Part shown: piece by piece, positions 38,918 through 56,661 of the stretch
How positions within the stretch are numbered: position 1 is the first letter of the stretch
How the letters are laid out: the number at the start of each line of letters is the position of its first letter
Assembly (NCBI RefSeq): GCF_000429925.1
Contig: NZ_KE386985.1
Span: 285,739 to 349,738 of the forward strand
Origin: Desulfatirhabdium butyrativorans DSM 18734
GTDB lineage: Bacteria; Desulfobacterota; Desulfobacteria; Desulfobacterales; Desulfatirhabdiaceae
Length of the DNA: 64,000 bases
Reading direction: 5' to 3'
Program-made: the position numbers and the translations under genes
Notes under the pieces: generated by a model
Told to the model about the DNA's origin: nothing
Seen by the model: the letters and a program-made list of their open reading frames with translations, nothing else
Databases searched by the model: none

Positions 38918-38935
38918 GGGCAATTGGAGAACGAC

Positions 38936-40202: not shown

Positions 40203-41979
40203 CGGTTGCCCTGATGAATCGCTTGCACATGCGCGTATGGGTTTTCTCGAGATCGACGACGATCAGCGCGTCGATCACATCCGAAAATTTGTCATCGATG
40301 TTGAATCCAAGCACTTTGCCGTTGAGTTTGAGGTAATGCTTCAGCAGAACAGGAATCCCTTTTCCGTCAGGCTCGATTTGAGATATCCAATGGGATACCT
40401 CATCGATGGATTCGGGATATGCTAAGCGCCGATCTCTGTTCTCCGATATTCCGAACCATAAGCGATAAGGATGCCGCGGTTTCACCCGGGAGGCCCAATC
40501 CGGTTCGCTATGATGCAGCATCAGGAAGTGGGCCATGAGTTTTTTGGAAAAGTCCCGATAATCGTTTCGGATGCTGACCAGACCGAACAATATCCGGTAG
40601 CCGGGATTTCTCCGGATAAATTCGCCGATGCCTCTCCAGATCGTGATCAGACTGTTGTGCTTCTTTTGATACTCGATGCGCACAAAAGATCTGCCGAATT
40701 CGATCATGCTGGCTGCCTGATCGAAGAATGAACGGTTCAAGCGAAACAGGGTGTTCGTATAAAGACCTTTTTTGCCGTAGGCAGCCAGGATTTCATCCAC
40801 CAGCCCCAGGCGGTACCCTCCGATGATTTCTCCGGTTTTTCGATTGCACATGAACAAGTGGCGATAATGGTCATCGAAACGATCCAGATCGAGGGATCGT
40901 CCCGTTCCTTCCCGCACGGCCCGAAATGCCTGCTCCCGAAGCCGGCCGATTTCCCGGAGAGCATGGGGAATCTGGTCGCTGACAGCGATATAGACCGCAT
41001 GATCCTCGGCCGTGATCAGAAGCTGTTCCTTTGGCAAAGCTTGGATTTCTTGTCGAAGAATATCCGGTGCAATCGGTTCGATCAGGGGTTCACGATGGTT
41101 GTGTCTCCGAACGAATACCGAAGCGGTTCCATCTGAAAACCATTTTCTTTCTTCCCGTTGATACTGAAGGATTTCGGTCGTGGTTCTGAGGTAAGCGACC
41201 AATTCCTTGTCACTTGTTTTGCGTTTCAGAAAAGACCAGGCAAGAGGCTTGCCGATATGAACACCAATATGCTGCTTACCTTTGTTGACCAATTCTCTGG
41301 GAAGCAGAAGTGTCCGCAGGCGGGGTGACAGCAGACCGGCCATGGAAAACAGGGTGCTGTTCCGACCTGGAAAGTAAACCGGAAGTGTGGTTGCCCGGGT
41401 TTTTCGAATCAGCGCAGCAACATGATGGCTCCAGTCGGGATCGGTGATCCTTTGGCGTTTCGGATTCCAGGAAGCGACTTCGCCCGCAGGGAATACAACC
41501 AGCGCTCCCCCTTGGCTCAGCCACAAGAAGGACTGTTTCAAACCTGCATAATTTTCGGATACCTTCCGGTTGTCGAAAGGATTGACCGGGATGATCCATT
41601 CCTCAAGATTCTGGATTTGTTTCAAAAGGTAATTGCCCATGATGCGAACATCGGATCGGATTTTGGAAATCATCGCGCCGATGATGAGGCCCTCAAGACC
41701 TCCGAAGGGGTGATTGGCAACGACAACCAGCGGTTCTGAAGCCGGAATCTGGTGGAGCAGGATTTCATCATAGGAATAGCGAACATCCATGGTTTCGAGA
41801 ATCGTGTCAAATGCGGATCTCTTTGAACGATTGACGACTTGCTTGTCTTGAAATCGGCTGTAATGCGCATTGACATCATCGATACCGAGAAACCGCTCGA
41901 TCGGCTGCTGAAAAACGGAGAAAAGCTTTCTGGCGAAGGGTGTTTCGATGGTTAAAGAAAGATCGATCAATTTTTCCAT
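40195..41979 (-). CDS. OlsF-like bifunctional acyltransferase (ornithine lipid synthase)
   Basis: The 594-residue protein joins an N-terminal PlsC-like acyltransferase (VVVANHPFGGLEGLIIGAM near residue 88, VFPAGEVASW) to a C-terminal GNAT/hemolysin-like N-acyltransferase (from about 330; RKTGEIIGGYRLGLVDEIL, MIEFGRSFVRIEYQ, LKHYLKLNGKVLGFNID). This order is that of OlsF, which makes ornithine lipids in two acylations. Ornithine lipids replace phospholipids when phosphate is scarce, which fits the candidate Pho box 127 bp upstream and the phosphate genes nearby. Only the substrate is uncertain; lysine or glycine lipids are alternatives. Confidence 0.8.
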   Translation of the reverse strand: MEKLIDLSLTIETPFARKLFSVFQQPIERFLGIDDVNAHYSRFQDKQVVNRSKRSAFDTILETMDVRYSYDEILLHQIPASEPLVVVANHPFGGLEGLIIGAMISKIRSDVRIMGNYLLKQIQNLEEWIIPVNPFDNRKVSENYAGLKQSFLWLSQGGALVVFPAGEVASWNPKRQRITDPDWSHHVAALIRKTRATTLPVYFPGRNSTLFSMAGLLSPRLRTLLLPRELVNKGKQHIGVHIGKPLAWSFLKRKTSDKELVAYLRTTTEILQYQREERKWFSDGTASVFVRRHNHREPLIEPIAPDILRQEIQALPKEQLLITAEDHAVYIAVSDQIPHALREIGRLREQAFRAVREGTGRSLDLDRFDDHYRHLFMCNRKTGEIIGGYRLGLVDEILAAYGKKGLYTNTLFRLNRSFFDQAASMIEFGRSFVRIEYQKKHNSLITIWRGIGEFIRRNPGYRILFGLVSIRNDYRDFSKKLMAHFLMLHHSEPDWASRVKPRHPYRLWFGISENRDRRLAYPESIDEVSHWISQIEPDGKGIPVLLKHYLKLNGKVLGFNIDDKFSDVIDALIVVDLEKTHTRMCKRFIRATDA

Positions 41980-42547
41980 ACGGTTGGCCTTTCAAGGTTG
42001 TTTTGTTCAAGATGAAAGGGATATCAGGTTCGATGAATTCGACACGGACGAAAACAGTGCAGCGATGCCATTTTTCCAAGTCTTATAGGCCGGAATTGTT
42101 TTCCCAATATTCGGCGAATATTAATTTTTGCTAACGATTCGTTGGTGGGAAAAAAGGCAGACGGAATGATCTCATCGGCAAGTCCCAAGGCTCTTGTCCG
42201 AACTGTTGCCGTCTTGGGTTGCACGCAGGATGGGTGTGAGAAGAAAGATGGGGCAGTTGCCGAAGAAACCGCAAGTGGTGCGAGCATCAATTGAATGCTT
42301 GCTGAATACGGACAGACACCGGCAGGGATGTGTTTCACACACCCCTGCCGGTTGCAGGAGGGCGGTTTTCAATCGACCCCCTGCATGATTCCAAGGAGTT
42401 TCATTCCCGGAAGCGGCAAGCCTCATGGTCCTGCGGATGACTTTCCGGATCACAACCGACGGCACTGCCCGTCCAATTCATAGAACGCCTTCATCCAACC
42501 GCATCGGCATGATGCCATTGAAAAGGGGTTTCGCTTCAGGTGGGAGA
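41980..42547. other. Intergenic region with Pho box and a long hairpin
   Basis: No gene is supported in 568 bp. Apart from the box at 42106-42141 it has a hairpin at 42318-42352: ACCGGCAGGG pairs with CCCTGCCGGT, and inside the loop TGTGT pairs with ACACA. No T-run follows on either strand, so it may be a structured transcript or a processing site. Confidence 0.55.
42106..42141 (-). promoter_or_regulatory. Candidate Pho box 4, upstream of olsF
   Basis: On the minus strand the core is ATTAATATTCGCCGAATA (42108-42125), preceded by CGAATCGTTAGC, parallel to the CGAATTGTTAAC before the boxes in the 371-bp repeats. It lies 127 bp before the olsF-like ATG. Confidence 0.6.
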
Positions 42548-42901
42548 TCACCACTTTCGATACAGAATTTCGTCCTGCTCCGGGCTTTCTTGTTGATGTT
42601 CCGTTTTCTCCTCCTCTTCCAGACAAGGCTCTTCACAGGATACGACAAATGCGGGTGTGTTTTCTTCCTCAGAGGGCTCATTTTCGCGCCATTTGAGCTG
42701 AATCTCGAATTTGAATTTTCCTTTCTTCGCCGATGCTGTCATTTCCACATCGACTTCCCCGCAGGGGGTTAATGTGACAAAGGATGAGGCTTGTTGCAGG
42801 ACAAGTTTTCCTTCCCGAAAGCTTTTGCCCAGGTCGTCGAACAAGTTGGCGATGGCTTCAGGGGTTAACCGGCATTTGACTTCGATTTCGGTGTGTTTCA
42901 T
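42548..42901 (-). CDS. Amphi-Trp domain protein 1 (GAK cluster)
   Basis: The 117-residue product starts at an ATG after AGGAGG (MKHTEIEVKCRL) and has the amphi-Trp pattern: an N-terminal helix (IANLFDDLGKSFREGKLVLQ), then beta strands ending GKFKFEIQLKW with the closing Trp. An acidic tail (SCEEPCLEEEEKTE) is extra. Function unknown; such proteins go with the HprK-like kinase and ATP-grasp enzyme of the GAK system. It is the last gene of the minus-strand cluster. Confidence 0.82.
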   Translation of the reverse strand: MKHTEIEVKCRLTPEAIANLFDDLGKSFREGKLVLQQASSFVTLTPCGEVDVEMTASAKKGKFKFEIQLKWRENEPSEEENTPAFVVSCEEPCLEEEEKTEHQQESPEQDEILYRKW

Positions 42902-42986
42902 CAGGGCCTCCTGTTGAAGAATGGTTATTGGAACGACATATCCGATGGTCACGCCAAGCTGCCGATCGCCTCGATTCGGCATTTGA

Positions 42987-44177
42987 TCAGACCACGGAGA
43001 ATAAAACCGATATCAGCTTCTTGGCATCGATTCGACTCGGATCGTCTTTGGAAATCAGATCTAAGGCCAGAATTCGGATTCCCATGCATTGCAGTGCGTT
43101 GATTTCGAAGGAACCTGGATAATCCGTCCGGGTTGGATCCAGCAAAACGATATCGAGCAGATTGGGCTCGATTGCAACGATGGGCAAATCCCGGACCAAC
43201 AATCGATTGATCCAACGAATTTGTTCCAGAATCGAATATCCCCGCAATTCCGGATCGATGCCCATGTTGGGAATAAATACCTTGGGGCAAGGGTTTCGGC
43301 ACACGGCATAACCGACGCCGTGCGGCAGCAAATTCACCAGAATGCTGGAAAAGAAACTACCCATCGGAAAGCAGATCATATCCGCATCCTGGATCAGGGT
43401 GATCATTTTATCCCGGATACTCGTCGTCACCGGTTCGTAGCGGTGCAACGATCGGGTGAGAGCAATGTCGATGATTCTGGATGGAAGCGGGGCGCATTCC
43501 TTCGCGGTGATGCGGTGCTGTCCGAGGACCACCTGCCCTGTTTCCAGGGTTGCCGCAAGATGGAGGGGAGAGTTGACGACCGGTCGAACCGTTCCCCGTA
43601 CCTGGGCCAGTTTGGAATAGATGTAAATGACCGGATCGAGATGGCGATCATAATTCAAGTATCCGCCGGTCAAAACGAGATTACCGACGCTTGCGCCCCG
43701 TAAATCGAAGCAGGCGGGCATGTGATGGTTGAACACGGCCAGATGGTTGCGAATAATCTTCCGCATGGGGTGGGCAACATCGGCCATCAGGGGGTGATCG
43801 CCTCTGACCATGGCCTCGATCGTTGATCGCAGCTCCTTTGGCTCTCCTGTTTTGGGAAGACGATAGGCAAACAGGCGGTAAACTTCCGGGTTTCCCTGAA
43901 GGGACTGATCGGCAAGTGCCATCAGACGGTTTCGGATATCGCCAACTGCAGGCATGTTGAATGCATCCCGCAGAATGGCTGAACTGCCCCCCGAATCAAA
44001 AGGGGTGATGATGTGGATGGAATTGTGGGTGTAATGAATCAATTCCTGGGAAACTTCGCGGAGCGCGCTGCCCCCGCTGAAAAATAAAATCTTGGGCCCG
44101 AATTCCGGACTTTTCCGATACAGAGCGAGTTTGGCAGCGTTCGGAATGGGGATATTTTTGGTTAGCTCAACATACAT
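42987..44177 (-). CDS. CofD-like protein of the GAK system
   Basis: The 396-residue product resembles CofD/YvcK-type proteins that bind nucleotide or phosphoglycolate-type ligands: KILFFSGGSALREVSQELI at residues 29-47, ITPFDSGGSSAILRDAFNMPAVGDIRNRL, VGNLVLTGGYL and FPMGSFFSSILVNLLP. A catalytic role is not established. I start at ATG 44177 (MYVELTKN); an upstream start at 44246 would overlap the kinase gene by 19 bases. It follows the HprK-related gene in the same orientation. Confidence 0.85.
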   Translation of the reverse strand: MYVELTKNIPIPNAAKLALYRKSPEFGPKILFFSGGSALREVSQELIHYTHNSIHIITPFDSGGSSAILRDAFNMPAVGDIRNRLMALADQSLQGNPEVYRLFAYRLPKTGEPKELRSTIEAMVRGDHPLMADVAHPMRKIIRNHLAVFNHHMPACFDLRGASVGNLVLTGGYLNYDRHLDPVIYIYSKLAQVRGTVRPVVNSPLHLAATLETGQVVLGQHRITAKECAPLPSRIIDIALTRSLHRYEPVTTSIRDKMITLIQDADMICFPMGSFFSSILVNLLPHGVGYAVCRNPCPKVFIPNMGIDPELRGYSILEQIRWINRLLVRDLPIVAIEPNLLDIVLLDPTRTDYPGSFEINALQCMGIRILALDLISKDDPSRIDAKKLISVLFSVV

Positions 44178-44227
44178 GGTATCGATCCATCCAATTGGAA
44201 ATGGCTCTTTTCTCCCTGCCGTCCTGC

Positions 44228-45304
44228 TTAAAACAAATGCTTGCAACGATCGATGACTGCCTCGAAATCGACCCCGCCGGTGATTTCATAAATGGGCGTT
44301 TCCCCGAGCCGTTCGAGATAATCCATATCCGTCGGATCGTCGGGTTTGAACCCTCGGCTTCCGAGATAAAACAAACCGGTCGCTTTTTGAAAGGTGGCCA
44401 GCAAATCCTTTCGATCGTTCAAGGAAACCGTTTGCATATCCATCGGTTTATCCTGAGGCTTCCAATTGAGAATCAACAGGGCATGCAATGGGGTACAGAG
44501 CAGAAAACGGCTTTTGGGAAAGCATCGGTCGATGGGTGCATCGTATTTTTCCTCCAACCGCCAAAGCGTTTCAGCGGTCATTCCGGAATACCGTTCAATA
44601 TCATTTTCAGGCAATAACCCATGTAAATTCGGGTTGTTCAATATGGTGCCCGGATTGATCCGAGGCAGTTTGGCCACACCGTGCATGAGCAAGCGATCGG
44701 AAGTCTTTTCCAGGACCAGTCTGTCGTTGCTGACGAAATCCGCCCCTTCACGCAACAAATGAAGGCTGAGGGTGGATTTGCCCATGCCCGAAAAGCCGGC
44801 AATGGCTATACCCAATCCCCGGAAAACGACGCCGGCAGCATGGGCCAGTATGCCGCCGGCATCCAGCATCCATTGGATGTATCGGTTGTTGATGAAATTG
44901 ATGATCTGGTTGAGATTGTTTTTGCAGGGACCGATGGCGATGTGATCGCCTTCACCGAAAATGAAGACCATACCGGTCAGCCGTTTTCGGACGATTCGAC
45001 CGTCTTCCAGATCGACGTATTCTTCTTTTATACGGGTCTTACCCGGATCCGGTCTCTTGGGAATCAGGGGAAAACCGATTTCGACGGCTTCTGCTTCGTG
45101 CACGGAGATCGTGTAGGCCGGAGGGCCTTCCTCCGGTGCAAGAAACGGATGGAAGTAGGTCTGCAAACCGGAGAGAATCTCGCTGTCGTTGGTCCGAACC
45201 GCGATGGTGCACTCACCGAAGCGCACCCATAGATTCTCCAATGGGGGATAGGTGTTTCGAATGGCTTCCGCTATGGATTTGCGGTTCATGGAACGTAGCA
45301 TCAT
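44228..45304 (-). CDS. HprK-related kinase B (GAK system)
   Basis: The 358-residue protein has an HPr kinase/phosphorylase-like ATPase core with P loop GFSGMGKSTLSLHLL near residue 163 and VSNDRLVLE and KLPRINPGTIL downstream. HPr kinase phosphorylates a serine in a partner protein, but no HPr gene is near, so the target is unknown. N-terminal residues 1-120 form a separate domain. The start overlaps the ATP-grasp stop (ATGA). An upstream in-frame start exists at 45349. Confidence 0.85.
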   Translation of the reverse strand: MMLRSMNRKSIAEAIRNTYPPLENLWVRFGECTIAVRTNDSEILSGLQTYFHPFLAPEEGPPAYTISVHEAEAVEIGFPLIPKRPDPGKTRIKEEYVDLEDGRIVRKRLTGMVFIFGEGDHIAIGPCKNNLNQIINFINNRYIQWMLDAGGILAHAAGVVFRGLGIAIAGFSGMGKSTLSLHLLREGADFVSNDRLVLEKTSDRLLMHGVAKLPRINPGTILNNPNLHGLLPENDIERYSGMTAETLWRLEEKYDAPIDRCFPKSRFLLCTPLHALLILNWKPQDKPMDMQTVSLNDRKDLLATFQKATGLFYLGSRGFKPDDPTDMDYLERLGETPIYEITGGVDFEAVIDRCKHLF

Positions 45305-46209
45305 GATGCGATCCGTTTCTTCACGTAATCGAGATAGAGTTGGGCACAATCGATGTTGCAGGCTGTTTTTAGCCCCTTGAAACCACCGAATGCCGATACT
45401 TCGAACACCACCGGTCCGGCCTCCGTTTCCGCGACATCGACGCTCGTAAAATCCAGTTGAAACAATGCCTGCGCTCTTTGCGCGATTGCGATCGTCTGGG
45501 GATCTGGCGTGTATGGCACATATCTTCCACCATTTGCCGTTGTGGTGTTCCAGCTCGGTGTATCGTTTTTACGGGCGTAGGTCGCAACATATTCCCCGCC
45601 TAAAAAGACGATGCCGAGATCCCTGCCTTGCAGATTCACGCGTTTTTGCAGATAGAGAATCGGATTGTTATTTCGGAACGATTCGAGTTGGATGTAGGCA
45701 CCGGGATGGTCTTCGATCAGCTCCATTCCTCTGGCCTTGGTGGAATACAAAGGTTTCAGGACGGCTTCGCCGTATTCTTGCAGTTGGCGCAAGGCTGCGG
45801 CACTGTCTTCGGTGATGCAGGTCGGCGGCATGGGGATGTTTGCGATTCGAAGCGCAATGGTACAACTGAGCCGGTCCAGCACACGGAGGATGTGGATGGG
45901 CCGGGAGAAGATCCGCACGCCCCGGCTTTCCAGGAAATGCAGGATTTCCAATCGATCCAGCAGATTCGGAGAATAATACGGCCCGATCTTCTTGATGATG
46001 ATGGCATCGAGTGTGCAAAGATCCAGCCCGTTCCAGTGGACTATCCCCCGATCCAGATCCAGCATGATCTGTTCCATATTGATCAGCAACCGCTTGCCCG
46101 TGAAACGGGCCACCGTATCGGCAAGTCGTTCCGATGACCATCCGCCGGGATTCCCGATGACGGCAATGTTCGGTTTTTTCCGATTTCCGCCTATATCAAT
46201 TTGTGTCAT
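45301..46209 (-). CDS. ATP-grasp enzyme of the GAK system
   Basis: The 302-residue product has a RimK-like ATP-grasp fold: an N-terminal domain (IAVIGNPGGWSSERLADTV, DAIIIKKIGPYYSP), the ATP-binding AVLKPLYSTKARGMEL, and the metal-binding C-terminal VVFEVSAFGGFKGL. Such enzymes ligate a carboxylate to an amine using ATP. The substrate is unknown. It starts at ATG 46209, overlapping the stop of the PhoU-APH gene (TGATG), and is itself coupled to the kinase gene. Confidence 0.85.
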   Translation of the reverse strand: MTQIDIGGNRKKPNIAVIGNPGGWSSERLADTVARFTGKRLLINMEQIMLDLDRGIVHWNGLDLCTLDAIIIKKIGPYYSPNLLDRLEILHFLESRGVRIFSRPIHILRVLDRLSCTIALRIANIPMPPTCITEDSAAALRQLQEYGEAVLKPLYSTKARGMELIEDHPGAYIQLESFRNNNPILYLQKRVNLQGRDLGIVFLGGEYVATYARKNDTPSWNTTTANGGRYVPYTPDPQTIAIAQRAQALFQLDFTSVDVAETEAGPVVFEVSAFGGFKGLKTACNIDCAQLYLDYVKKRIAS

Positions 46210-47888
46210 CACAAGGCCTCCAAAAAGAGGATGTCTTCCGAAAACGAGAATGAGCCCCAGTCGTTTCGGTCGGCATGCGAGCGGATCTTTTCCATCAGAT
46301 AATGCGATCGCAGCACCATTTCTTTGGCGAATGCCTGATGCTGTTCAAACCGAATGGATGTGTAAAAATTTCGGCAAAGCCCCAGTGCCAGGCGCGCCTG
46401 AAACGTCGTATCCTGGTGGGTTTTCGAAAACCGGAGCAACAGACCGAAAAATTCAGCGATCATCTCGTTCAACCGTTCCCGGAGAATCGGTTCAAACGCG
46501 GGCAATCGAAACAGGGAAACCAGAAAAACGGCTGCGTCTTCAACGTAATCTCCGTCATGGGAGCGATACACATCAATGTAGTAAATCCGCTGGGCTTCGT
46601 GGTCGTAGACGATGTTGTTCACATTGAAATCCCCGTGACAGAATACGGACAGCGGGGCCTCGAGCGTCGCTTCGATTTCGGCGCATTGACGGATCAAATG
46701 GATCGTCGAGGGGATATGCAATTCGCCGAGATATTTTTCGGAACGCACCAATGCTGGATGGAGCCGGTTGCTTTCGTCGATTCTGGCAAGCAATTGTTTC
46801 ATGAATTGCACCGGAACCGGTTGCAACCGCAGGCTTCGCGCCCAGATTTCTTCGATCACCTCTTGCAGCAGGAAGAGGGCGTTTTGGACGATTTCGGTTT
46901 CAGCCGACAACAACACCTCCTCGAAGGTACATCCCGGCAAGAATTCGATCAGCAACGATGCGGTTTCGCTGGTTTCGTGATAACCGAACACACGGGGTGT
47001 CAAACCCGGGAAAAAGGATTGCCAGCGAAGCAGGTTATTTTTCTCACGGAGAATTTTGTTCTTGTTGCCTTCTTTGAAAATCCCTTGTGAATTGTCAGTG
47101 TTATCCGTTTTTGTGCCGATCAGCGAAATCCGGCATCCGGATCGCGTACCCCAGATCGACTTCATTTTGATTTTCGAAAAATCGTCCGTATATCCACATC
47201 GGCTGAGGGTTTCTTGCAGGGCCTCAAACTGATGAATCTTGATTTTTTCACCCATGATGGCGAACAACAACGCTTCTCCGATGTTTAGCAGCGAATCGCC
47301 GATTCGCTCAAGATAGCGAAAAATGAACAGACTCGTAATCAGATCGGGTGGGGCGCCTCCCTGCTGCAGCTCCTGGAGGATACGGCGAAAACACTTATTA
47401 TACAGGATATCCAGCCGGTATTCCGACCTGCAGATTTCCAGTGCATCCGAAAGGCTTCTTCCCTCGAAGGCCGGATGAATTTTCATGGCCTCTGTTTCAA
47501 TCACTTTCAGCATGGGTTGGTGGTCGAATCGCTGGATGAAGGCCGGATCGGAAAAGTATTCGACTTGTCGGGCGATGTTGACGCAGAAATCGGCGATGCG
47601 TTCCAAATTGACGGAAATCGTATGAATGGCCCGCAGCGAGTTGATTTCATTCTGATCGATGTGCTCACCGCCGTGAATCCGCGAAAAGCAGGCGTTTTCG
47701 ACAATGGTCTTCAGGTTGTCGATGTAATCATCCCGCGAGGCCATTTTCTTGAAGAAAAAGGAACCGGGCTGTTTCAACAAGTCTGATGTCGTTTGAATCT
47801 GGCCGATGATTTCGGTCCAGAGAAATTTGAAATTTTCCCGGAGTTCATCCAGTTTGCTGGAGGAATCAGGTGGATATTTGAATGGCAT
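46209..47888 (-). CDS. PhoU-aminoglycoside phosphotransferase-like fusion protein
   Basis: The 559-residue protein joins two folds. Residues 10-235 are PhoU-like helices (ISVNLERIADFCVNIARQVEYF, FRYLERIGDSLLNIGEALLF, the E/D-containing repeats that bind metal in PhoU). Residues 265-550 are a kinase of the APH/choline kinase type, with CHGDFNVNNIVYD (catalytic loop) and IYYIDVYRSHDGDYVEDAA (metal motif). PhoU proteins report phosphate status, so this looks like a phosphate-sensing small-molecule or protein kinase. SD GAGGGA precedes the ATG; the gene overlaps the second amphi-Trp gene. Confidence 0.8.
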   Translation of the reverse strand: MPFKYPPDSSSKLDELRENFKFLWTEIIGQIQTTSDLLKQPGSFFFKKMASRDDYIDNLKTIVENACFSRIHGGEHIDQNEINSLRAIHTISVNLERIADFCVNIARQVEYFSDPAFIQRFDHQPMLKVIETEAMKIHPAFEGRSLSDALEICRSEYRLDILYNKCFRRILQELQQGGAPPDLITSLFIFRYLERIGDSLLNIGEALLFAIMGEKIKIHQFEALQETLSRCGYTDDFSKIKMKSIWGTRSGCRISLIGTKTDNTDNSQGIFKEGNKNKILREKNNLLRWQSFFPGLTPRVFGYHETSETASLLIEFLPGCTFEEVLLSAETEIVQNALFLLQEVIEEIWARSLRLQPVPVQFMKQLLARIDESNRLHPALVRSEKYLGELHIPSTIHLIRQCAEIEATLEAPLSVFCHGDFNVNNIVYDHEAQRIYYIDVYRSHDGDYVEDAAVFLVSLFRLPAFEPILRERLNEMIAEFFGLLLRFSKTHQDTTFQARLALGLCRNFYTSIRFEQHQAFAKEMVLRSHYLMEKIRSHADRNDWGSFSFSEDILFLEAL

Positions 47889-48141
47889 TGCCCTTGTCCC
47901 TCAGGATATCGGATGGGAAATCGTTCCAGGACAATTTGATCGTGATTTTCGATTTTCCGGGTTTCCGCTTCGCTTTCAGAGAAAACCGAATCAATTCCGT
48001 CGGTGCCAGCAGGACGCTTTCTTTCTCAGAACGCAACAGAATCTTGCCGTTTTCGATTCCTTCGATCAGCGTGTTCAGGTATTGTCGCATCGTTTCTCTG
48101 TCTTGAACGGCTTCATAATCGAATTTTTCCATTTCGGACAT
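47866..48141 (-). CDS. Amphi-Trp domain protein 2 (GAK cluster)
   Basis: The 91-residue product has the amphi-Trp layout: MRQYLNTLIEGIENGKILLR, then strands with KPGKSKITIKLSW. It starts after AAGGAGG and its end overlaps the PhoU-APH start by 23 bases. This is the second such protein in the cluster, so a heterodimer or two partner enzymes are possible. Confidence 0.8.
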   Translation of the reverse strand: MSEMEKFDYEAVQDRETMRQYLNTLIEGIENGKILLRSEKESVLLAPTELIRFSLKAKRKPGKSKITIKLSWNDFPSDILRDKGNAIQIST

Positions 48142-48165
48142 AGCGTTCCTCCTTATTTTCGTTCA

Positions 48166-49356
48166 TCACTGTGGATCGGTTTTGGGCATCTCTTCACCCA
48201 AACGGGCTTTGTATTCCTCGATAACGCATTTTCGGCTCATGTTGGCCGTAATCAGAGCCTTTCGAATGGGAATTTCTTCCCATGCCGGCTGAACGCCGAT
48301 CTCTCGAGCGGCCTTTTCAGGGTCTTGTTTATCGACGTCCCGTATTTTTTCCCCCATGTGGGTGTCATCCCCCATAAAGAGCAGCAGCCTTTTGCTGGAG
48401 CGTATTTGAACGGCGTTTTTCCGGTTGACCACGGAAATCAGAAATTCCGTATAGCGACGGGACTGCGGATTCCAGATTTCATAGCCATCCACATCGTAAT
48501 CTGCGAGCAAAATGGGCCAAAACTGTTCGGGATGGGGAATGACGATGCCGCCGCCTAACGATCGGACTTCTTCAATAATCTCCGATGTCCGGTAGAAATA
48601 TCGCATGGGGAATTGGGATTTGACGATTTGTTTGACAGCGTGCAAAAAAATCTGGGCGCGATTGATCCATGCATCTCCATATTCCGGTCGATATTCATCC
48701 AGAAAATCCCGCAACAGCTTGTTCTTGAACACTTCAATCGGGATTTTGTCATAATGATGTCCGATTAACAGCGACAGTTTCTTCATCTGTGCCTGTACAA
48801 ACCGGATGCATTCGTCGTTTGCACCGGTTTCGGTAGCAGCAAGCTGAATACGGCTTTCGTTCGGCTTGATCAGCGTATCGAGCAAGTCGTTCATCTGATG
48901 CTGACGGTATTTTAGCGTATATGCGAGCATGGACTTGAGAACATGAGCGGATTGGACCCGGCGTTCATGAAAATGCAGCAGCAATTGCACCTTCTGATTG
49001 AATCCTTTGGAGTAAGCATCGATTTCGACCCCTGCATATTCGTGAAAGCACAGCAATTCATTGTGTTGGGTGGGGATGATCAACGACTTTTTCATATTGG
49101 GGAACGTATTGTGGATTCGCTGCTCGACCAGTTCCAAAGGAATATGTTCCGGATGCCAATGAACGGCCAGGACGGTTTCTTGCCGGGGATACAGGGTGGC
49201 AGGGTTGACGATGCGATCGACCTGTTCAGACGACAAACGGGTCGTTGTAATTTTGGCGAAAATCGCTTCGTCGTTTTCCGTGAGCTCTTCGGAAAACATG
49301 CGGGAAAATTGCGGATTCAAGGGAATACATTCAGATTTGGGTTTCACCAGGACCAT
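48166..49356 (-). CDS. PHP-like metal-dependent hydrolase, GAK cluster
   Basis: The 396-residue protein is unknown to me by name, but carries histidine-rich motifs like those of PHP phosphoesterases: HWHPEHIP near residue 67, IIPTQHNELLCFHEYAGVEID, LLLHFHERR, IVIPHPEQFWPI and MGDDTHMGEK near the end. These would give a multi-metal site. GGGAGG precedes the ATG. Its place between the XXXCH and amphi-Trp genes suggests it removes phosphate from a product of this cluster; that is inference. Confidence 0.6.
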   Translation of the reverse strand: MVLVKPKSECIPLNPQFSRMFSEELTENDEAIFAKITTTRLSSEQVDRIVNPATLYPRQETVLAVHWHPEHIPLELVEQRIHNTFPNMKKSLIIPTQHNELLCFHEYAGVEIDAYSKGFNQKVQLLLHFHERRVQSAHVLKSMLAYTLKYRQHQMNDLLDTLIKPNESRIQLAATETGANDECIRFVQAQMKKLSLLIGHHYDKIPIEVFKNKLLRDFLDEYRPEYGDAWINRAQIFLHAVKQIVKSQFPMRYFYRTSEIIEEVRSLGGGIVIPHPEQFWPILLADYDVDGYEIWNPQSRRYTEFLISVVNRKNAVQIRSSKRLLLFMGDDTHMGEKIRDVDKQDPEKAAREIGVQPAWEEIPIRKALITANMSRKCVIEEYKARLGEEMPKTDPQ

Positions 49357-49399
49357 TTGCCTCCCTTTTGCTGCAGTCGTTCATCGGACGAATGGGGCA

Positions 49400-49936
49400 T
49401 CATTTGTGATGGCATGCCTTTTTCATCGCTGATATATTGACCCATACCTCCCGAAAACCTTCTACATTGGTTTTCAAGTAGGCTTGTTGAAGTGCACGGA
49501 TCAGATCGAGGAACTCCGGATACCGTTCATCTCCATAACCTGGGTATGTCGTCATTTCTGCTGCATGTTTGCAGAATAAATCCATCTCGACGTTGGATGG
49601 TAACCGTCCCTCTTCCAGGAGGCCTTCGATCGATTGAAACAATTTTTTTAACCGTTTCTTCAAGACAGGGTATTCGGGTTTTTCTGCCAAGGGAGAGCCC
49701 TCGGTCTGCGTTTCCGTTGCTTCCACCGAATCACGACGGTATTTGATTTTGCATTCGATCAGTGGCTGGTTCATTGTCTTACGAATACGGAGTTTCAGCT
49801 TCTTGATTCGATCAAAGTCCAGAGGCTGTCGTTCGGAGGAAATCACTTTGCCGGAAAGATCTTCAAGTATCCGCTGGAGGAAAGAAATGGCATCAGCACC
49901 AAAGACGATGAATTCCTGCGTGTTTTTTCGTTTCAT
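49400..49936 (-). CDS. GAK system XXXCH protein
   Basis: The 178-residue product ends with ISAMKKACHHK, the XXXCH motif: like a heme-binding CxxCH whose first Cys is lost. Before it are TYPGYGDERYPEFLDLIRA and a helical bundle that recall cytochrome c-prime. The N-terminal half (residues 1-90) is a separate amphi-Trp-like domain with LKLRIRKTMNQPLIECKIKY. I start at the ATG 49936 after GGGGTG; a GTG at 49945 would add three residues. Function unknown. Confidence 0.75.
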   Translation of the reverse strand: MKRKNTQEFIVFGADAISFLQRILEDLSGKVISSERQPLDFDRIKKLKLRIRKTMNQPLIECKIKYRRDSVEATETQTEGSPLAEKPEYPVLKKRLKKLFQSIEGLLEEGRLPSNVEMDLFCKHAAEMTTYPGYGDERYPEFLDLIRALQQAYLKTNVEGFREVWVNISAMKKACHHK

Positions 49937-50033
49937 GTCAGTCACCCCATGATTGCTTCTGACCTTTATTGGTTTTTTCTGCCTGAAGAACTCTTTTGCC
50001 GCATAGGTTCGAATCCTGGATACCGTTCGGTGA

Positions 50034-50258
50034 TCACCGCGGGTGGCCTTTTTCCGTATCGTTCAACGCATCTGTTTTGGCATCCTCTTTGGATAATTCA
50101 TTGAATGCTTGTATCAATATGTCGGTTTCCGTACGTTTTCGAGGATACACCCAACGCTTTGCCGCACAGAACCAGATGATCCACAGCAGAATCAGAAAAA
50201 TCGTCCAACCGACCATTTCAAAAATCCTTTTGAGTAGAAGAGACTTTTTTTCTATCAT
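50034..50258 (-). CDS. Small single-span membrane protein
   Basis: The 74-residue product has one hydrophobic segment (VGWTIFLILLWIIWFCAAKRW, roughly residues 15-37) and a charged tail with TDILIQAFNELSKEDAKTD. I do not recognise it, and no good ribosome binding site precedes the ATG. It keeps the orientation and spacing of the cluster and may be a real accessory subunit. Confidence 0.5.
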   Translation of the reverse strand: MIEKKSLLLKRIFEMVGWTIFLILLWIIWFCAAKRWVYPRKRTETDILIQAFNELSKEDAKTDALNDTEKGHPR

Positions 50259-50337
50259 CGATTTGTTAGGAAATGATTAGCGTTTTATTAAAAAATGATG
50301 AGGATGGGGTATCGTATAAAGGTCAATCCGGAACGTT

Positions 50338-51393
50338 CTATATTTGGTCCGGATATACAAAAATCTGGAGATGGGATCCCGTCACCCGGCTTCTTCCCGT
50401 ATAGAGAAATATGCCAAGGGCGATGCCTTCGAGAAAGAGAAGCACCTGTGGACTCCACAAGGCTTCGAGCCCGACAAGAATATCCAGGGGAAGATCGCTG
50501 CCTTGGACAGGGGAAGCGAAGACAATGAGAGCAGCCAAGGGGATCGATGCGAGCGAGAGCCACTGATATGCCGTGATGAAACCGACCCCTCGAAAATCCG
50601 CTCGAAAAAATTCGGATATCCAGCGCCAGAGCTTTTCGACGCAAACAGCAATCAGGAATGCCGTCGAAAAATTGCCGTTCAGGTGGAAAACCATGGAAAC
50701 GCATCCGGTAAGAGAAAGGACGATGCAAGTCATGGCTTGAACCGGCACCACCGCTTGACCATCCAGGTGATGGGCGTAAGCGATTTTCTTCGATTTTCCG
50801 GTGAACACAAAGCAAAATCGGCTGAAGATGCGTTGCATCCGGACGGGGTAGCTTGCGATCGGCCTGCCGTAACAGCATCCGAAACTGATACAGGCAAGAC
50901 GGCCGATGCTCTCGCCGAAACAGTATGCAATGCTCAATGCCGACATCACCGGCAACAGCGGAAGCGAAAGGCCATCAGGTCGCTCGGTGGCGATGTTGAT
51001 CCCCAAAACGATCATGGGCGCAAACACCATTCCGGCAAAAGCCGCACCGGCCACCGTGAAGGTATTGGGCTTGCCCTCGATGAACCGGGCGATGATCTTT
51101 GCTGCCGGCAGGCAAAGAATCGAAATCAGGAAAATCAATGCCATCCATTGGTTTCTCGGAACGCCTCCGGTTGCCAGCAGCAGGATCAATATGGCGGCTG
51201 CAAAGGTGTAGGCCAATGCATTGAACACGCCGTAAAACGTCAGATTCAGTCCGCTCCAGCTCCCTGAATCCATCTGTTTGTCCGGAATGACGGCAAACAC
51301 TTGCCAGCGTTCCCGAGGCAGGTGGCCAAAACCCCAGGCCAGCAATCCGGTGAGGCTGCAGATCAGAACAGCCAGAAAAATGAAATTGTGCAT
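50338..51393 (-). CDS. Lgt-like multispanning membrane protein
   Basis: The 351-residue protein resembles prolipoprotein diacylglyceryl transferase: about eight membrane segments and GESIGRLACISFGCCYGRP near residue 172, like the Lgt signature around its essential Arg. It is not the housekeeping Lgt, being longer at the N-terminus and sitting in a different cluster, so it may move a lipid moiety onto another acceptor. AAGGAGG sits five bases before the ATG at 51393. It follows the phosphatidylserine decarboxylase gene. Confidence 0.7.
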   Translation of the reverse strand: MHNFIFLAVLICSLTGLLAWGFGHLPRERWQVFAVIPDKQMDSGSWSGLNLTFYGVFNALAYTFAAAILILLLATGGVPRNQWMALIFLISILCLPAAKIIARFIEGKPNTFTVAGAAFAGMVFAPMIVLGINIATERPDGLSLPLLPVMSALSIAYCFGESIGRLACISFGCCYGRPIASYPVRMQRIFSRFCFVFTGKSKKIAYAHHLDGQAVVPVQAMTCIVLSLTGCVSMVFHLNGNFSTAFLIAVCVEKLWRWISEFFRADFRGVGFITAYQWLSLASIPLAALIVFASPVQGSDLPLDILVGLEALWSPQVLLFLEGIALGIFLYTGRSRVTGSHLQIFVYPDQI

Positions 51394-51452
51394 CGCATCC
51401 TCCTTGAAGGTATTGTCCTTCGGCAAACACGGCCAACAGGCGCCAACCCCTC

Positions 51453-52562
51453 TTACAGACCAGCCTCGTTTGTAATCGTCATACCAGGGCACTTTTCGCC
51501 AGACATTTCATGAAACAGGTAATGGGGGACATCGATGGGATGCGCTATGGTTTCGCGGTTCGCAGAAGCGATATCGGAACGGACGAGCACGTCCGTTTCC
51601 ACCAGATGACAACCGAAACCGATGCTGTAGCGGCTGCTCACATCCTGACGCCATTGGTTCTGCAGCAGATCGGATGAGAAGCGGATACGGTCTTTTTCGA
51701 AAATCAGCAGGGTCGTCGAACTCCCCGGTCTGAAAAGGCTCTTGGGTTGCCCTTTTCGGACGAACATACCGGAAGAGATGGGCTTGGGCGATTCATAACG
51801 CTTATCGCTGTAACATTGAACGATGTCGCCGATCATCAGGGCGGCGATTTCGATTATGGCGACATAACCGATACCGGTTCCATCGGCGACGTCCGTATCG
51901 ACAATACTGACGGTTCTGCGGTTCTTGGATAAGGGGGTGACTGCCTGAATGGCGGCCGTCGGATTGCAGGCGTGATACAGACCGGAGATATCATAGATAT
52001 CCGCTATATAACCCGATACGGGCATGTGGTTGTAGTGGTATTTGTCGGGCGTCAGGCGAAAGACGGCGAAATCGCCTCCCCGGAACAGCGCCCGCCATTC
52101 GGGGTGATGCAATCCGAGCAGTTCGTCGTATTCGAACAATTTATCCTTGATGTGAAGGCTGCTGTCGGTTGAAAACGAGCCGACAAGTACTCGGGCATCC
52201 GATGGCGATACGATGGCGTTCTGGTTTTCGTTCATTGGGCGGCATTCCCAATAGCGGATCTGACGTTCGAACAATTCGCGAAATGTATTCATCCTTTGGA
52301 TATCCTTTACGAATTCGGTTTCATTGATTTTCAGGGAACAAACGGTGCGCCTGATGTGTTCGGGGTGAATGGGGCGCATGAGGTCATAGTGGAACCAGCC
52401 CAGGAGCTTGGAAAACCTTCCCGAAACAAGCGCCCGGAACATCGCACCGGGTCTTTCCCGAAGCCGGTTGTACATCCAGAATATCACCCGGTCTCCAAGC
52501 AATGTTTCGTTTTGGACGGCCCCGGTTGAGCGATCGACATACTGATGCGGTAAGGCCCTCAT
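51453..52562 (-). CDS. Phosphatidylserine decarboxylase family protein
   Basis: The 369-residue product matches the phosphatidylserine decarboxylase family (PF02666): the central VSPSDARVLVGSFS, FRLTPDKYHYNHMPVSGYI, and the cleavage region FRPGSSTTLLIFEK, where the Gly-Ser-Ser would yield the pyruvoyl group. It makes phosphatidylethanolamine, or decarboxylates a related lipid. It starts two bases after the stop of the 808-residue gene, so it is coupled to it, not to a phosphatidylserine synthase gene. Confidence 0.85.
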   Translation of the reverse strand: MRALPHQYVDRSTGAVQNETLLGDRVIFWMYNRLRERPGAMFRALVSGRFSKLLGWFHYDLMRPIHPEHIRRTVCSLKINETEFVKDIQRMNTFRELFERQIRYWECRPMNENQNAIVSPSDARVLVGSFSTDSSLHIKDKLFEYDELLGLHHPEWRALFRGGDFAVFRLTPDKYHYNHMPVSGYIADIYDISGLYHACNPTAAIQAVTPLSKNRRTVSIVDTDVADGTGIGYVAIIEIAALMIGDIVQCYSDKRYESPKPISSGMFVRKGQPKSLFRPGSSTTLLIFEKDRIRFSSDLLQNQWRQDVSSRYSIGFGCHLVETDVLVRSDIASANRETIAHPIDVPHYLFHEMSGEKCPGMTITNEAGL

Positions 52563-52564
52563 GG

Positions 52565-54991
52565 TCAGGCCGCCTTCGCAAAGCTTCGGTCGCGTTCTTC
52601 GGGTCCGGACTGAGTTTCACGAATCTGTTGCGTACTTTGTTGCGTTTGAAATCCGATGACCAGAATCAGCAAACCGATCAGGGCATCCATATCCTGATGG
52701 GTCAACCGGTCGTTCAACAGATCTTGTCGAAGGCATTCGATGAGGCTGACCGGCGGCTGACCTTTTAAGAGGATATTCAGGGTCATGCGCCATGAACTGT
52801 CTTCGTTCCAGAGTCGTTCAAAATCGCACAGACATTCCCGAAGGGTCTGCAAGGCTTCCGAAAGATGTTCTTTGGAAAGTGTCTTCCGGTAATAGGACTC
52901 CGCAGCCCCGTTGAACTCACTGCTGTTCAGCCGGAAGGGATCCGATGCGCCAGCGTGGGCCAAAATATCCTTGACCAGCCGTTGGGATGCCGCGGTGTCC
53001 GGCGCATTCGATATCCGATTTTCCAGATCGTCGATTTCAGGCTGAAGCTGCATCAGCTCGATCAAGTCGGCTGCATCTTTCCGAATCAATCGAAGGAGCG
53101 CTTTTCTGTATTCCAGTTGATATACCCGTACATATCCCGGATAGCGGGTGCTGAACCGGGTACGACGAACCTCTTTCAGAATGTTCTGCATGAAGGCATT
53201 GGGGGTATCGATCTTGACGAAAAACGTGGGCAGCCCGACTGCCGCGCCGAAGGTGATCTGGCGCCGTTCGCTTTCCACAAAAGGCGTATCCGGGATCGAG
53301 GAATGGGCGACATCGCCTTGAACGATGTATTTTGCGGCCAGTGCGTTGATCAGCGTCTGGAGGGATGCTGCAGGCCCCATGTCGTTCAGCAGAGATGGAA
53401 ACAGGCTGTAGAAACGCCCTTCGAATCCGAAGAACCCGTGCACGTCCGCCTGGCGCATACGATAGAACAGGTAGAGCGCCATGCGGCTGTCGAATACCCC
53501 CAATTCTGTCAGATCGCGTTTGAGCCGAACGTCGTTTCCGATGTGGCCATCCAGAGCCGGGCTTTCGTTTGTGCTGAGCAGGGCTACCAGATAATCGATC
53601 AGCCGGAAATCCGGAACGAGATCCCCCTTGAGACCGAAAATTCGACCGATTGCTGCATCGAGCCATTCCGGACCCATCGGGGTGACCGGAACGCCGAAAA
53701 ACTTCAGCCTGGCTTTTTTCTTCCACCGTCTCCACAGCATCCGCAGATGAGTGAAATCGAGCTCATGGGGCAGGAATCCAAGCGCTTTTTCCGGATGAAA
53801 CTGCTGAAAATCCAGGCGATAAGGCGCTGCTGCATAGGTGTTGATGAACAGCGGCAGAAAATGCTCGAAAATCTTGATGACGAGATCCCCGAAGCGCTTT
53901 TCTTCGGCGGCCTTGAAGCTCATTTCCGGATCGTGATAGAGCCGAAGCAGTTTCCGGCTGCTGATGCTGATATGGGTGCCGTTGTTGGCGAGACTCACAT
54001 TCGATAGATTGGGCAAGACCACGAGATTGGACTGGATGATGCCGGCATCGCGAAGTTTGCTCACGGCGTTCAACTGGCTTCTGGACAGCACCCGGTGGCA
54101 GACGTGCATGTAGTCTTGTTTGCTTTCCCCCAAATCCCATCCGGAAAGACATGGGTTCATGAACAATTGTCTGTAGAAGGCATCCGGAATGACATTGTTG
54201 AGCGCGATCAGGCGTTGCGGCGGATTGGGTGCAAAGCAGATTTGCGCTTCCTGACCATGATGCCGGAGCATGAAATGATGATTGCCGTAAACGACCAGAA
54301 GATGGGTCAGCAGATGGCGCAACAGGGTTTCTTGGGCAACGGCCCGACCCATCCGGGTTTCCACGGTCATCGGGGAAGGATAAAAGGAAAATGTTTCCGG
54401 CGAGGTATTGTCACTGAGAAAGTGCGGCAACATGTTTTCCCCGAGTTGTTGCAACGAAATCGGGGTGTTTTGGGTTTGACCGATATACTGGGCCAGCCCC
54501 AGTTTGATGAAATAGCTCACCGGAATACGGAGCCATTTCTCCTGGTTCCGATCAAAGAAAAACCGGTCGATATCCGAACGGAAAGGTCCGCCCGGATTTC
54601 GTTTATCCGCGAGCATGTCGGTCTGCAGGATGTTCAGGGCGTAGGCGTTCAGCAGATCAACCGGAAAACGGACCCAACTGTTTTCCCAGACATTGCCGGC
54701 ATGCTCATCCAGAAAGGTCCTCAGTTTTAAAAATGGTTTTTCGGTGCTTTCTTCCGATTCAACGCGTTTTCGCAAATTCCGGTAAAATGTGGAATCCCGA
54801 ATGATGATGGGCAAATCGACCGACTGCTTTCCGCCGGATACCGTTGATAGCAATTCGTTTTCCACGCCTGCCGCCGCATCTTCCGGTACGAATGGCAGGC
54901 TTTGGACAAACCGGTCCCTGGATGATCGGTCGATTTCCAGAACCCGATCCCAATCCAAGGAAGCATCAGGTTGTACTGAAGGAGTATTCAT
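52565..54991 (-). CDS. Large conserved-looking protein of unknown function (808 residues)
   Basis: I do not recognise this protein. It opens the minus-strand cluster, AGGAA before ATG, and its stop is two bases from the decarboxylase start. It has no signal peptide and no obvious membrane segment. Notable stretches are YGNHHFMLRHHGQEAQICFA near residue 238, SNLVVLPNLSNVSLANNGTHIS, a basic piece MLWRRWKKKARLKFFG near residue 427, and a helical C-terminal third. The length and the His-rich segment would allow an enzyme. Ordinary base composition and a clean frame argue that it is a real gene. Confidence 0.7.
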   Translation of the reverse strand: MNTPSVQPDASLDWDRVLEIDRSSRDRFVQSLPFVPEDAAAGVENELLSTVSGGKQSVDLPIIIRDSTFYRNLRKRVESEESTEKPFLKLRTFLDEHAGNVWENSWVRFPVDLLNAYALNILQTDMLADKRNPGGPFRSDIDRFFFDRNQEKWLRIPVSYFIKLGLAQYIGQTQNTPISLQQLGENMLPHFLSDNTSPETFSFYPSPMTVETRMGRAVAQETLLRHLLTHLLVVYGNHHFMLRHHGQEAQICFAPNPPQRLIALNNVIPDAFYRQLFMNPCLSGWDLGESKQDYMHVCHRVLSRSQLNAVSKLRDAGIIQSNLVVLPNLSNVSLANNGTHISISSRKLLRLYHDPEMSFKAAEEKRFGDLVIKIFEHFLPLFINTYAAAPYRLDFQQFHPEKALGFLPHELDFTHLRMLWRRWKKKARLKFFGVPVTPMGPEWLDAAIGRIFGLKGDLVPDFRLIDYLVALLSTNESPALDGHIGNDVRLKRDLTELGVFDSRMALYLFYRMRQADVHGFFGFEGRFYSLFPSLLNDMGPAASLQTLINALAAKYIVQGDVAHSSIPDTPFVESERRQITFGAAVGLPTFFVKIDTPNAFMQNILKEVRRTRFSTRYPGYVRVYQLEYRKALLRLIRKDAADLIELMQLQPEIDDLENRISNAPDTAASQRLVKDILAHAGASDPFRLNSSEFNGAAESYYRKTLSKEHLSEALQTLRECLCDFERLWNEDSSWRMTLNILLKGQPPVSLIECLRQDLLNDRLTHQDMDALIGLLILVIGFQTQQSTQQIRETQSGPEERDRSFAKAA

Positions 54992-55293: not shown

Positions 55294-56661
55294 CTATAGA
55301 AGATTGCTGGCCAGCTCGGACAACTCCGAGCGTTCCCCTTTTTCCAGGTTGATATGCGCATAGAGCTTTTGTCCGTGCATTTTTTCGATCAGATAACTCA
55401 GGCCGTTGGACTGCGTGTTGAGATAGGGATGATCGATCTGGAAGATGTCGCCTGTCAGAACGACCTTGGTGTTTTCCCCGGCCCGGGTGATGATGGTCTT
55501 GACCTCGTGGGGGGTGAGGTTCTGGGCTTCGTCGACAATGAAGAAAATGTTCACGAGGCTTCGCCCCCGAATATAGGCCAGAGCCGAAATGAGCAGTTTC
55601 TGTTCTTCCAGCAGCCGATTGACGGCGTCTCGGGTCGATTCCGATTTTCCGTACTGGGAGCGGATCACGCTCAGGTTGTCGAACAACGGCTGCATGTATG
55701 GATCGAGTTTTGAGTGAATGTCTCCGGGCAGAAAGCCAATGTCCTTGTTGCTGAGCGGAACGACCGGCCGCGCCAGAAAAATCTGGCGATAATTCTTTTT
55801 TCGGTGCAGTGCGGCTGCCAGTGCCAGCAGGGTTTTTCCCGTTCCGGCTTTACCGGTCAGGGTGATGAGCTGGACATTGCTGTTTGTCAGGGCATCCAGG
55901 GCAAAGGTTTGCTCGGCGTTTCGGGGAATGATCCCGAAGGCCGGATTTTTTTCGATTTTTCGAATGGTTCGGTTGCCGGGATCATAGACGGCCAGAACCG
56001 ACCGGGAAGCGTTCCGCAGGATGAAATATTCGTTGGCTACGGGTTCCCGCTCCAGGGTGAGCATTCCTGGATCGATCTCGAACGGCTGCTCATAGAAGTG
56101 CTGCATCACGTTTTCCGGAACGTTTTCGATGCGGCGTTTTCCCGTGTAAAGAGCGGTGATGTCCTTGACCTGATCGCTTTTGTAATCCTGCGCAGGCAGC
56201 CCGATCGATTTGGCCTTGATGCGGAGGTTTACGTCCTTGGAAACCAGGATGATTTCCCGGGAAGGTTTTTCTTTTGCGGCATGATAGGCGATGTTGAGGA
56301 CATGGTGATCGGCGCGGTTATCCGAAAAGCTTCGCTGGATGTCCGGATCGAAGGGGACATCCAGCTTGACCGTGATTTTGCCAAGACCTGGCCCGATGGG
56401 AACTCCGCCGTTGAACAGGTGCTCGCCGCAGAGTGCATCCAGGGTCCGGACAAATTCCCGGGCATGAAAGTTCAGCATTTCGCTTCCCTTTTTGAACTGG
56501 TCCAGCTCTTCAAGAACCGTGACGGGGATGACGACATCGTTTGCTCCGAACTGATAAATGCAGGAGCTGTCGTGCAGGATGACATTGGTGTCCAGAATGA
56601 AAACCTTCTTCTTGTTTCTCGGCATGCGTTTTCCTGGGGTTCGGGTTTTGGGTTTGGGCAT
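55294..56661 (-). CDS. phoH: PIN-PhoH family ATPase
   Basis: The 455-residue protein joins an N-terminal PIN ribonuclease domain (KVFILDTNVILHDSSC near residue 19, VLEELDQFKKG, NRADHHVLNIA) to a C-terminal PhoH ATPase (Walker A LTGKAGTGKTLLALA, Walker B NIFFIVDEAQNLTPHE). PhoH2-type proteins unwind and cut RNA; the name comes from phosphate starvation. The start at 56661 (MPKPKTRT) follows GGAG, and an ATG at 56625 is also possible. It is preceded by the stub of an olsF gene and a candidate Pho box. Confidence 0.93.
   Translation of the reverse strand: MPKPKTRTPGKRMPRNKKKVFILDTNVILHDSSCIYQFGANDVVIPVTVLEELDQFKKGSEMLNFHAREFVRTLDALCGEHLFNGGVPIGPGLGKITVKLDVPFDPDIQRSFSDNRADHHVLNIAYHAAKEKPSREIILVSKDVNLRIKAKSIGLPAQDYKSDQVKDITALYTGKRRIENVPENVMQHFYEQPFEIDPGMLTLEREPVANEYFILRNASRSVLAVYDPGNRTIRKIEKNPAFGIIPRNAEQTFALDALTNSNVQLITLTGKAGTGKTLLALAAALHRKKNYRQIFLARPVVPLSNKDIGFLPGDIHSKLDPYMQPLFDNLSVIRSQYGKSESTRDAVNRLLEEQKLLISALAYIRGRSLVNIFFIVDEAQNLTPHEVKTIITRAGENTKVVLTGDIFQIDHPYLNTQSNGLSYLIEKMHGQKLYAHINLEKGERSELSELASNLL

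Follow-up and report, generated by a model that had tools for sequence, protein, structure and literature searches.

A run of twelve genes on the minus strand (42548-54991) of the window, the whole 64-kb stretch of DNA analysed here, raises the question of whether the genes of the GAK system and the lipid genes beside them form a single pathway, and what the GAK operon might do. An earlier note had described the run as eleven genes, although its own list holds twelve. The named GAK parts, PhoU-APH fusion, PHP-like gene and lipid genes that it listed on this strand are all present. The features of the run and its neighbours are as follows.

40195-41979, minus strand: OlsF-type ornithine-lipid synthase, downstream neighbour (NF052615 381 bits, E 1e-113; under the 620-bit cut-off)
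42548-42901, minus strand: amphi-Trp protein 1; ORF open to 42982 (TIGR04354 55.6 bits, cut-off 31)
42987-44177, minus strand: GAK CofD-like protein; ORF open to 44246 (TIGR04357, CofD_rel_GAK, 522 bits, cut-off 340)
44228-45304, minus strand: HprK-related kinase B; ORF open to 45349 (TIGR04355, HprK_rel_B, 470 bits, cut-off 200)
45301-46212, minus strand: GAK ATP-grasp protein, RimK-like (TIGR04356, grasp_GAK, 435 bits, cut-off 300)
46209-47888, minus strand: fusion of PhoU domain and APH-type kinase, 559 aa (PF01895 and PF01636)
47866-48141, minus strand: amphi-Trp protein 2 (TIGR04354 65.6 bits, cut-off 31)
48166-49356, minus strand: putative PHP-like phosphoesterase (invariant residue set in 32 sequences)
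49400-49945, minus strand: XXXCH protein (TIGR04358 78 bits, cut-off 40)
50034-50258, minus strand: small membrane ORF, 74 aa, called from sequence; start possibly a later ATG at 50216
50264-50303, minus strand: predicted PhoB-box array upstream of the GAK operon, tandem half-sites with 11-bp period (12.5, 10.7 and 9.8 bits, GAK-derived two-block model)
50338-51393, minus strand: Lgt-like membrane protein; ORF open to 51492 (PF01790 40.5 bits)
51453-52562, minus strand: phosphatidylserine decarboxylase (PSD)-like protein (PF02666 124.7 bits; PGSS site; PDB match to PSD)
52565-54991, minus strand: 808-aa protein (U808), first gene of the lipid trio (no family match; model pLDDT 85)
55294-56661, minus strand: PhoH2-like ATPase (PIN-PhoH), upstream neighbour (PF02562, PF13638)

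The run very probably comprises two units, a GAK core (42548-49945) and a lipid trio (50338-54991). The gap of ~80 bp between the Lgt-like gene and the small membrane ORF holds the predicted PhoB-box array, and the run is therefore probably not a single transcription unit. The GAK core contains genes for the XXXCH, PHP-like, amphi-Trp, PhoU-APH kinase, ATP-grasp, HprK-like, CofD-like and second amphi-Trp proteins. The small membrane ORF, formerly counted as part of the system, gave no phmmer match in other GAK loci and was rejected as a core gene because no homologue was found there. Both units lie in a phosphorus island that includes phn genes, phoA and olsF within the window. A PHP-glycosyltransferase gene also neighbours the units, and the PhoH2-like ATPase recurs close to GAK in other loci.

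Conservation of the core was assessed in 48 GAK loci with full flanks from several phyla. PhoU-APH was present in all 48, amphi-Trp and ATP-grasp each in 47, PHP in 45 and CofD in 44. The core genes keep their order and strand between loci; dozens of loci from different phyla share this order, far more than chance would give. Relatives of Nitratidesulfovibrio are among the carriers of GAK. The PHP-like and PhoU-APH genes, which lie outside the NCBIfam definition of GAK, are core members since 45/48 and 48/48 loci carry them, which bears out their earlier assignment to the system. PHP co-occurred with GAK-context CofD in 18/21 cases in the phylum (p=1e-21); divergent CofD matches in genus g166 (L093-L096) fall outside GAK clusters, and counts were made with and without them. 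A PHP of GAK type was also found in six genomes of family f148. In the three of these that were opened, PHP, amphi-Trp and PhoU-APH form a group by themselves, with no CofD, ATP-grasp or HprK-B beside them. The heart of the GAK operon is PHP, amphi-Trp and PhoU-APH, and the window carries a complete GAK operon. A literature search on GAK, amphi-Trp and HprK-related kinase B found nothing relevant.

In the PhoU-APH protein both PhoU metal motifs (LERIxD type) are kept, with N94, E96, D100, E194 and D198 invariant, as are HGDxxxxN (H418, D420, N425) and the metal-binding D439 of the kinase part (29 sequences). The protein misses the full-length PhoU equivalog (TIGR02135, 68 bits vs a cut-off of 130). 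In the PHP-like protein, HxH (66, 68), E111, H128, H275, E293, D331 and H333 are invariant in 32 sequences; this pattern of metal-ligand motifs fits PHP, yet Pfam and PDB sequence searches gave no match, nor did NCBIfam. HprK-B has an invariant P-loop, and the catalytic first Asp of the HprK motif ADDR is replaced by an invariant Asn (SNDR). In the ATP-grasp protein, the metal-binding EVN of RimK is EVS in all 27 members and DIR is DLG in nearly all; its best NCBIfam relative outside its own model is MptN (134 bits). The CofD-like protein matches PF01933 (127 bits) and falls below the cut-off for YvcK (TIGR01826, 120 bits vs 196), with UPF0052/YvcK-type proteins as the closest solved structures. 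The XXXCH protein has an amphi-Trp-like N-terminal domain (profile match probability 94 %, E 1.8e-7), and the predicted model and a fold search suggest that the C-terminal part is a four-helix bundle shaped like cytochrome c'.

The E. coli Pho-box consensus CTGTCAT was not enriched even at pst promoters, and a motif was therefore learned from 59 GAK promoters instead. This motif is a direct repeat, CTAACA-N5-CTAACA, and requires 11-bp spacing (gain 220 vs 103-138 for other spacings). It was also detected in held-out promoters of pstS (p=1e-5), PHP-glycosyltransferase (p=0.001) and the trio (p=0.0015), with related promoters treated as independent in these p-values. In the published PhoB box, (c/t)GT(n)AC occurs as a direct repeat (PMC3333781), and PhoB binding to the D. 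vulgaris por site has been demonstrated by gel shift (PMC6456213). The por site scores 13-15 bits with the GAK-derived model, so that the motif matches a verified PhoB box. In the window the array lies between the two units, and its best site, at 12.5 bits, falls short of the median for GAK promoters (13.5), with 0.67 sites of at least 12.5 bits expected by chance per 64 kb under the GAK-derived two-block model. No site exceeds 10 bits in roughly a third of the GAK promoters. Many GAK loci adjoin pst/phoU/phoB genes. The f148 minimal unit follows dnaX-type genes and has no adjoining box, which indicates that PhoB control of GAK is not universal. From its promoter sequence, the GAK operon in the window is quite probably under PhoB control. 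The phosphate link proposed earlier is thus upheld by the pst/phoU neighbours, the PhoB-box motif and the phosphorus island.

The trio (50338-54991) makes up a lipid operon of its own. Many genomes that lack GAK also carry it as an operon, and promoter motifs predict that in many genomes it belongs to the same PhoB regulon as GAK. U808 had no match in Pfam, NCBIfam or PDB sequences. Its candidacy as a ligase like gamma-glutamylcysteine synthetase (GCS) was rejected, with weak fold matches only, an hhalign probability of 0.2 % to E. coli GshA and no Pfam support. The PSD-like protein has an invariant self-cleaving site (PGSS, GSS/GST type) in addition to its PF02666 and PDB matches, and falls short of the NCBIfam PSD equivalog cut-offs. 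The Lgt-like protein keeps Arg143, Arg239 and Glu243, and was rejected as a canonical prolipoprotein diacylglyceryl transferase (Lgt) since the catalytic His103 is replaced by small aliphatic residues.

The single pathway proposed in the earlier note, a phosphate-controlled route by which all of the genes make a phosphorylated lipid or peptide, or attach one, is very unlikely. Beside GAK, the trio does occur in about six different arrangements or orientations, in SAR324 as well as in several lineages of Desulfobacterota; it shares the PhoB-type motif with GAK, and the two co-occur above chance (order, p=6e-4; phylum, p=2e-5 to 9e-8). However, 20/31 genomes with U808 in the order and 31/43 in the phylum lack GAK, U808 is nearby in only 3/48 full-flank GAK loci, the Lgt-like protein is without its catalytic His, and none of the results shows GAK working on a lipid. 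The earlier note would have taken the lipid genes for chance neighbours had they been found next to GAK in close relatives only; by this test they are not, and the proposed tie is upheld in a weaker form, with the trio missing near most GAK loci. That the two are chance neighbours, sharing a phosphorus island and no further common role, fits with their separation in most loci, but is itself unlikely given the shared motif and the 3/20 genomes with both in which they lie within about 15 kb (~0.14 expected under random placement with an assumed 0.7 % chance per genome; p about 4e-4).

Two further explanations concern the product of GAK. Glucose pentakis(diphosphate) granules have reportedly been found in Desulfovibrio gigas, and GAK might make such a phosphorus-storage or -sparing metabolite through kinase steps and PPIP5K-like use of the ATP-grasp fold. 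Several phosphotransfer folds, PhoU and the PhoB-type promoter would suit this role, as would the disappearance of phosphate granules in D. alaskensis under limiting phosphate (PMC5193443). However, a literature search found no paper on the chemistry of glucose pentakis(diphosphate) granules, and ATP-grasp and HprK-B are altered at the catalytic positions of their relatives, which makes this a remote prospect. Synthesis of an F420-like conjugate, in which a phospho-group would be transferred from a nucleotide carrier in CofD fashion before an MptN/RimK-like ATP-grasp added amino acids, would draw on the CofD fold and the MptN match, but it appears quite unlikely because the nearest solved structures are YvcK-type, the RimK EVN and DIR motifs are not kept, and CofD, ATP-grasp and HprK-B are missing beside the f148 minimal units.

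We prefer, with an even chance of being right, the reading of GAK as a PhoB-controlled phosphate-starvation module in which a phosphoesterase opposes a kinase gated by PhoU. At low phosphate, PhoB would bind the predicted tandem box (50264-50303) and induce the operon. The mechanism beyond this is tentative, with the opposition of kinase and phosphoesterase read only from gene content: the PhoU domain may inform the APH-type kinase fused to it of the state of phosphate or of the transporter, the PHP enzyme would take off what this kinase puts on, and the small amphi-Trp/XXXCH proteins would be the substrate or present it. In the fuller version, HprK-B, ATP-grasp and the YvcK-like CofD may add nucleotide- or phosphometabolite-dependent steps. 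It is possible, though doubtful, that several phyla share a new starvation switch, in which PhoU gates the APH-type kinase against PHP on amphi-Trp carriers and nucleotide-binding former enzymes serve as readers.

A widely shared operon of several phyla, previously a mere database name, can thereby be assigned a candidate regulon; its gene list is corrected and a minimal form of it recognised. Experiments on relatives of D. vulgaris, a model sulfate reducer, can now address its function directly. A previously undescribed lipid operon also becomes a predicted part of how sulfate reducers respond to phosphate; environmental lipid records are shaped by the way these bacteria remodel their lipids when phosphate is low.

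Phosphate-dependent lipid remodelling in sulfate reducers involves agt and olsF (PMC5193443); an olsF-type gene and the PHP-glycosyltransferase neighbour the trio, whose promoters often share the motif, but, unlike those genes, the trio has no described product. The GAK ATP-grasp protein aligns end to end with RimK/MptN ligases in fold and length and differs in EVS for EVN and, mostly, DLG for DIR. HprK-B shares the P-loop and following DR with HPr kinase/phosphorylase, but has SNDR for ADDR and scores far under the HprK cut-off. All five families of the NCBIfam GAK system (TIGR04354-TIGR04358: HprK_rel_B, grasp_GAK, CofD_rel_GAK, amphi-Trp and XXXCH) match in the window above cut-off, whereas that definition assigns neither function nor regulon and omits the PHP-like and PhoU-APH genes that are core here. 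With PhoU of the Pst/PhoBR pathway the GAK protein has the metal motifs in common, and GAK loci are often near pst; it differs in its score against the equivalog (68 vs 130 bits) and in its fusion to an APH-type kinase.

The earlier note described an expanded GAK cluster of eleven genes linking kinases, phosphate sensing and lipid enzymes. All of the genes that it named lie within 42548-54991 on the minus strand, but their number is twelve:

42548-49945, minus strand: GAK core (XXXCH protein, PHP-like protein, amphi-Trp2, PhoU-APH fusion, ATP-grasp protein, HprK-related kinase B (HprK-B), CofD-like protein, amphi-Trp1)
50034-50258, minus strand: small membrane ORF
50338-54991, minus strand: lipid trio (808-residue protein U808, phosphatidylserine decarboxylase (PSD), Lgt-like protein)

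Both amphi-Trp proteins, CofD_rel_GAK, HprK_rel_B, grasp_GAK and XXXCH scored well over the NCBIfam cut-offs, while Pfam placed PhoU and APH on a single protein and likewise assigned LGT and PS_Dcarbxylase. The PHP-like protein and U808 had no match in Pfam or NCBIfam.

To collect related loci, CofD_rel_GAK was searched in the order (146 genomes) and the phylum (395 genomes), exceeding the cut-off in 19 and 31, respectively, and the regions were then taken; of 324 loci from an HprK-B profile search, the 80 best named ones were added. The gene order [XXXCH]-PHP-amphi-Trp-PhoU-APH-ATP-grasp-HprK-B-CofD-amphi-Trp was recurrent, and was seen in records titled as Desulfobacterota groups, Nitrospinota, Zixibacteria, Phycisphaerae, SAR324, Lambdaproteobacteria and Spirochaetia. 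Among 48 long-flank loci, the core was conserved, with PhoU-APH in 48, amphi-Trp2 and ATP-grasp in 47 each, PHP in 45, CofD in 44, amphi-Trp1 in 37 and XXXCH in 30. The proposed membership of PhoU-APH and the PHP-like gene was upheld. Lgt lay nearby in five of these loci (two matches partial) and PSD and U808 in three each.

A PHP profile matched 27 of the 395 phylum genomes, among them 18 of the 21 with a GAK-context CofD. Six of the 27 belonged to one family (f148); the three that were opened (L222, L223, L224) carried PHP-amphi-Trp-PhoU-APH without HprK-B, ATP-grasp or CofD alongside, and in the other three only CofD was sought, genome-wide. The minimal unit of L222 is preceded by dnaX-type genes, and in L227 PHP is followed by GGDEF-EAL and stand-alone PhoU genes, with motif matches upstream. 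In L065 and L067 the CofD-like gene lies immediately 3' of pstB-phoU, apart from the remaining GAK genes. An MgtE-type magnesium transporter follows CofD in L065 (13638-14990) and related loci, and the cluster of this transporter extends over five independent loci. One uncultured Desulfobacteraceae bin contained two HprK-B loci (L097, L100), which suggests paralogous GAK clusters.

The lipid trio is separable from GAK. U808, PSD and Lgt were grouped in the majority of another 20 genomes, and the majority of genomes with U808 (31 of 146 in the order, 43 of 395 in the phylum) lacked GAK. Overlap with GAK was nevertheless above chance in the order (11 of 21, a total to which contig-edge fragments contributed two; P=6e-4) and the phylum (12 of 31, P=2e-5; 12 of 21, P=9e-8, without the divergent CofD genus). 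The trio adjoins GAK in the window, L064, L087/L152 (a single genome), L117, L164 and L169, with partial Lgt matches by GAK in L123 and L157. A PHP-glycosyltransferase (PHP-GT) fusion occurs near the trio and also near GAK (L209, L213, L214). The Lgt-like protein retains Arg143, Arg239 and Glu243 but not His103. U808 gave a confident structure model, yet no convincing structural match.

GAK, pst and trio promoters share a motif. A first attempt with an E. coli-type Pho box gave no enrichment even at pst promoters. CTAACA repeats were spotted by eye in that listing, and a two-block model was then fitted by EM, with CTAACAT among the seeds, after promoter sets had been cut to operon-first genes (GAK, 84 to 59; pst, 13 to 8; trio, 14 to 13). 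Training was tried on each of the GAK, pst and trio sets, and all later scoring used the GAK-trained model, which describes TGTTA[CG]-type repeats at 11 bp distance. This spacing gave 220 versus 103-138 at other spacings, and four random promoter sets gave 108-140 versus 220 for GAK promoters. Scores above 10 bits were obtained for 75 % of pstS, 54 % of trio and 50 % of PHP-GT promoters, sets outside the fitting, and for 17 % of other promoters, a scoring not fully blind because pst and GAK sites had already been seen by eye. The promoter P-values (pstS 1e-5, trio 0.0015, PHP-GT 0.001) ignore shared ancestry. Published work on Desulfovibrio vulgaris is an independent check: the PhoB box is described there as (c/t)GT(n)AC in direct repeat (PMC3333781), and the site ahead of por that was shown by gel shift (PMC6456213) scored 13-15 bits. 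PhoB would be the probable regulator of GAK in D. butyrativorans.

Sites of at least 11.9 bits in the window, where ~1.2 are expected by chance, and the phosphorus-acquisition island around GAK are:

~22.9 and 23.4 kb: sites at the phn operon
34.7 kb: site at the HAD gene
50264-50281: site between the trio and the GAK core
23436-40069: PhnC/D/E-like phosphonate ABC transporter, phosphodiesterase, PhnI, amidohydrolase, HAD hydrolase, class V aminotransferase, alkaline phosphatase, YibE/F

The window's own U808 promoter had no site (3.5 bits). C-P lyase genes and an OlsF-type synthase are also carried; upstream of olsF (42100-42140) a repeat resembles the phn and HAD promoter arrays by eye, scoring at most 9 bits. 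A short ORF beside PhoH2 (56510-56860) matches the OlsF C-terminal end (59 bits) and is perhaps a remnant copy. In D. alaskensis, phosphate-free lipids under limitation require agt and olsF (PMC5193443).

In PhoU-APH, both PhoU metal motifs, the kinase HGDxxxxN and the subsequent Asp are invariant, and the PHP-like protein, unrecognised by any database profile searched, retains a complete set of PHP-type His/Glu/Asp positions. These proteins may form a kinase/phosphoesterase switch, of which the amphi-Trp proteins would be candidate targets. XXXCH has an amphi-Trp-like N-terminal domain and a C-terminal bundle resembling cytochrome c' in shape only (Foldseek E 0.03). HprK-B aligns with HprK at the P-loop, but where HprK has ADDR, the first Asp of which is the catalytic Asp, it carries SNDR. 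In the GAK ATP-grasp protein, the EVN and DIR motifs of RimK are replaced by EVS and DLG, respectively. The closest structures to the CofD-like protein are YvcK-type.
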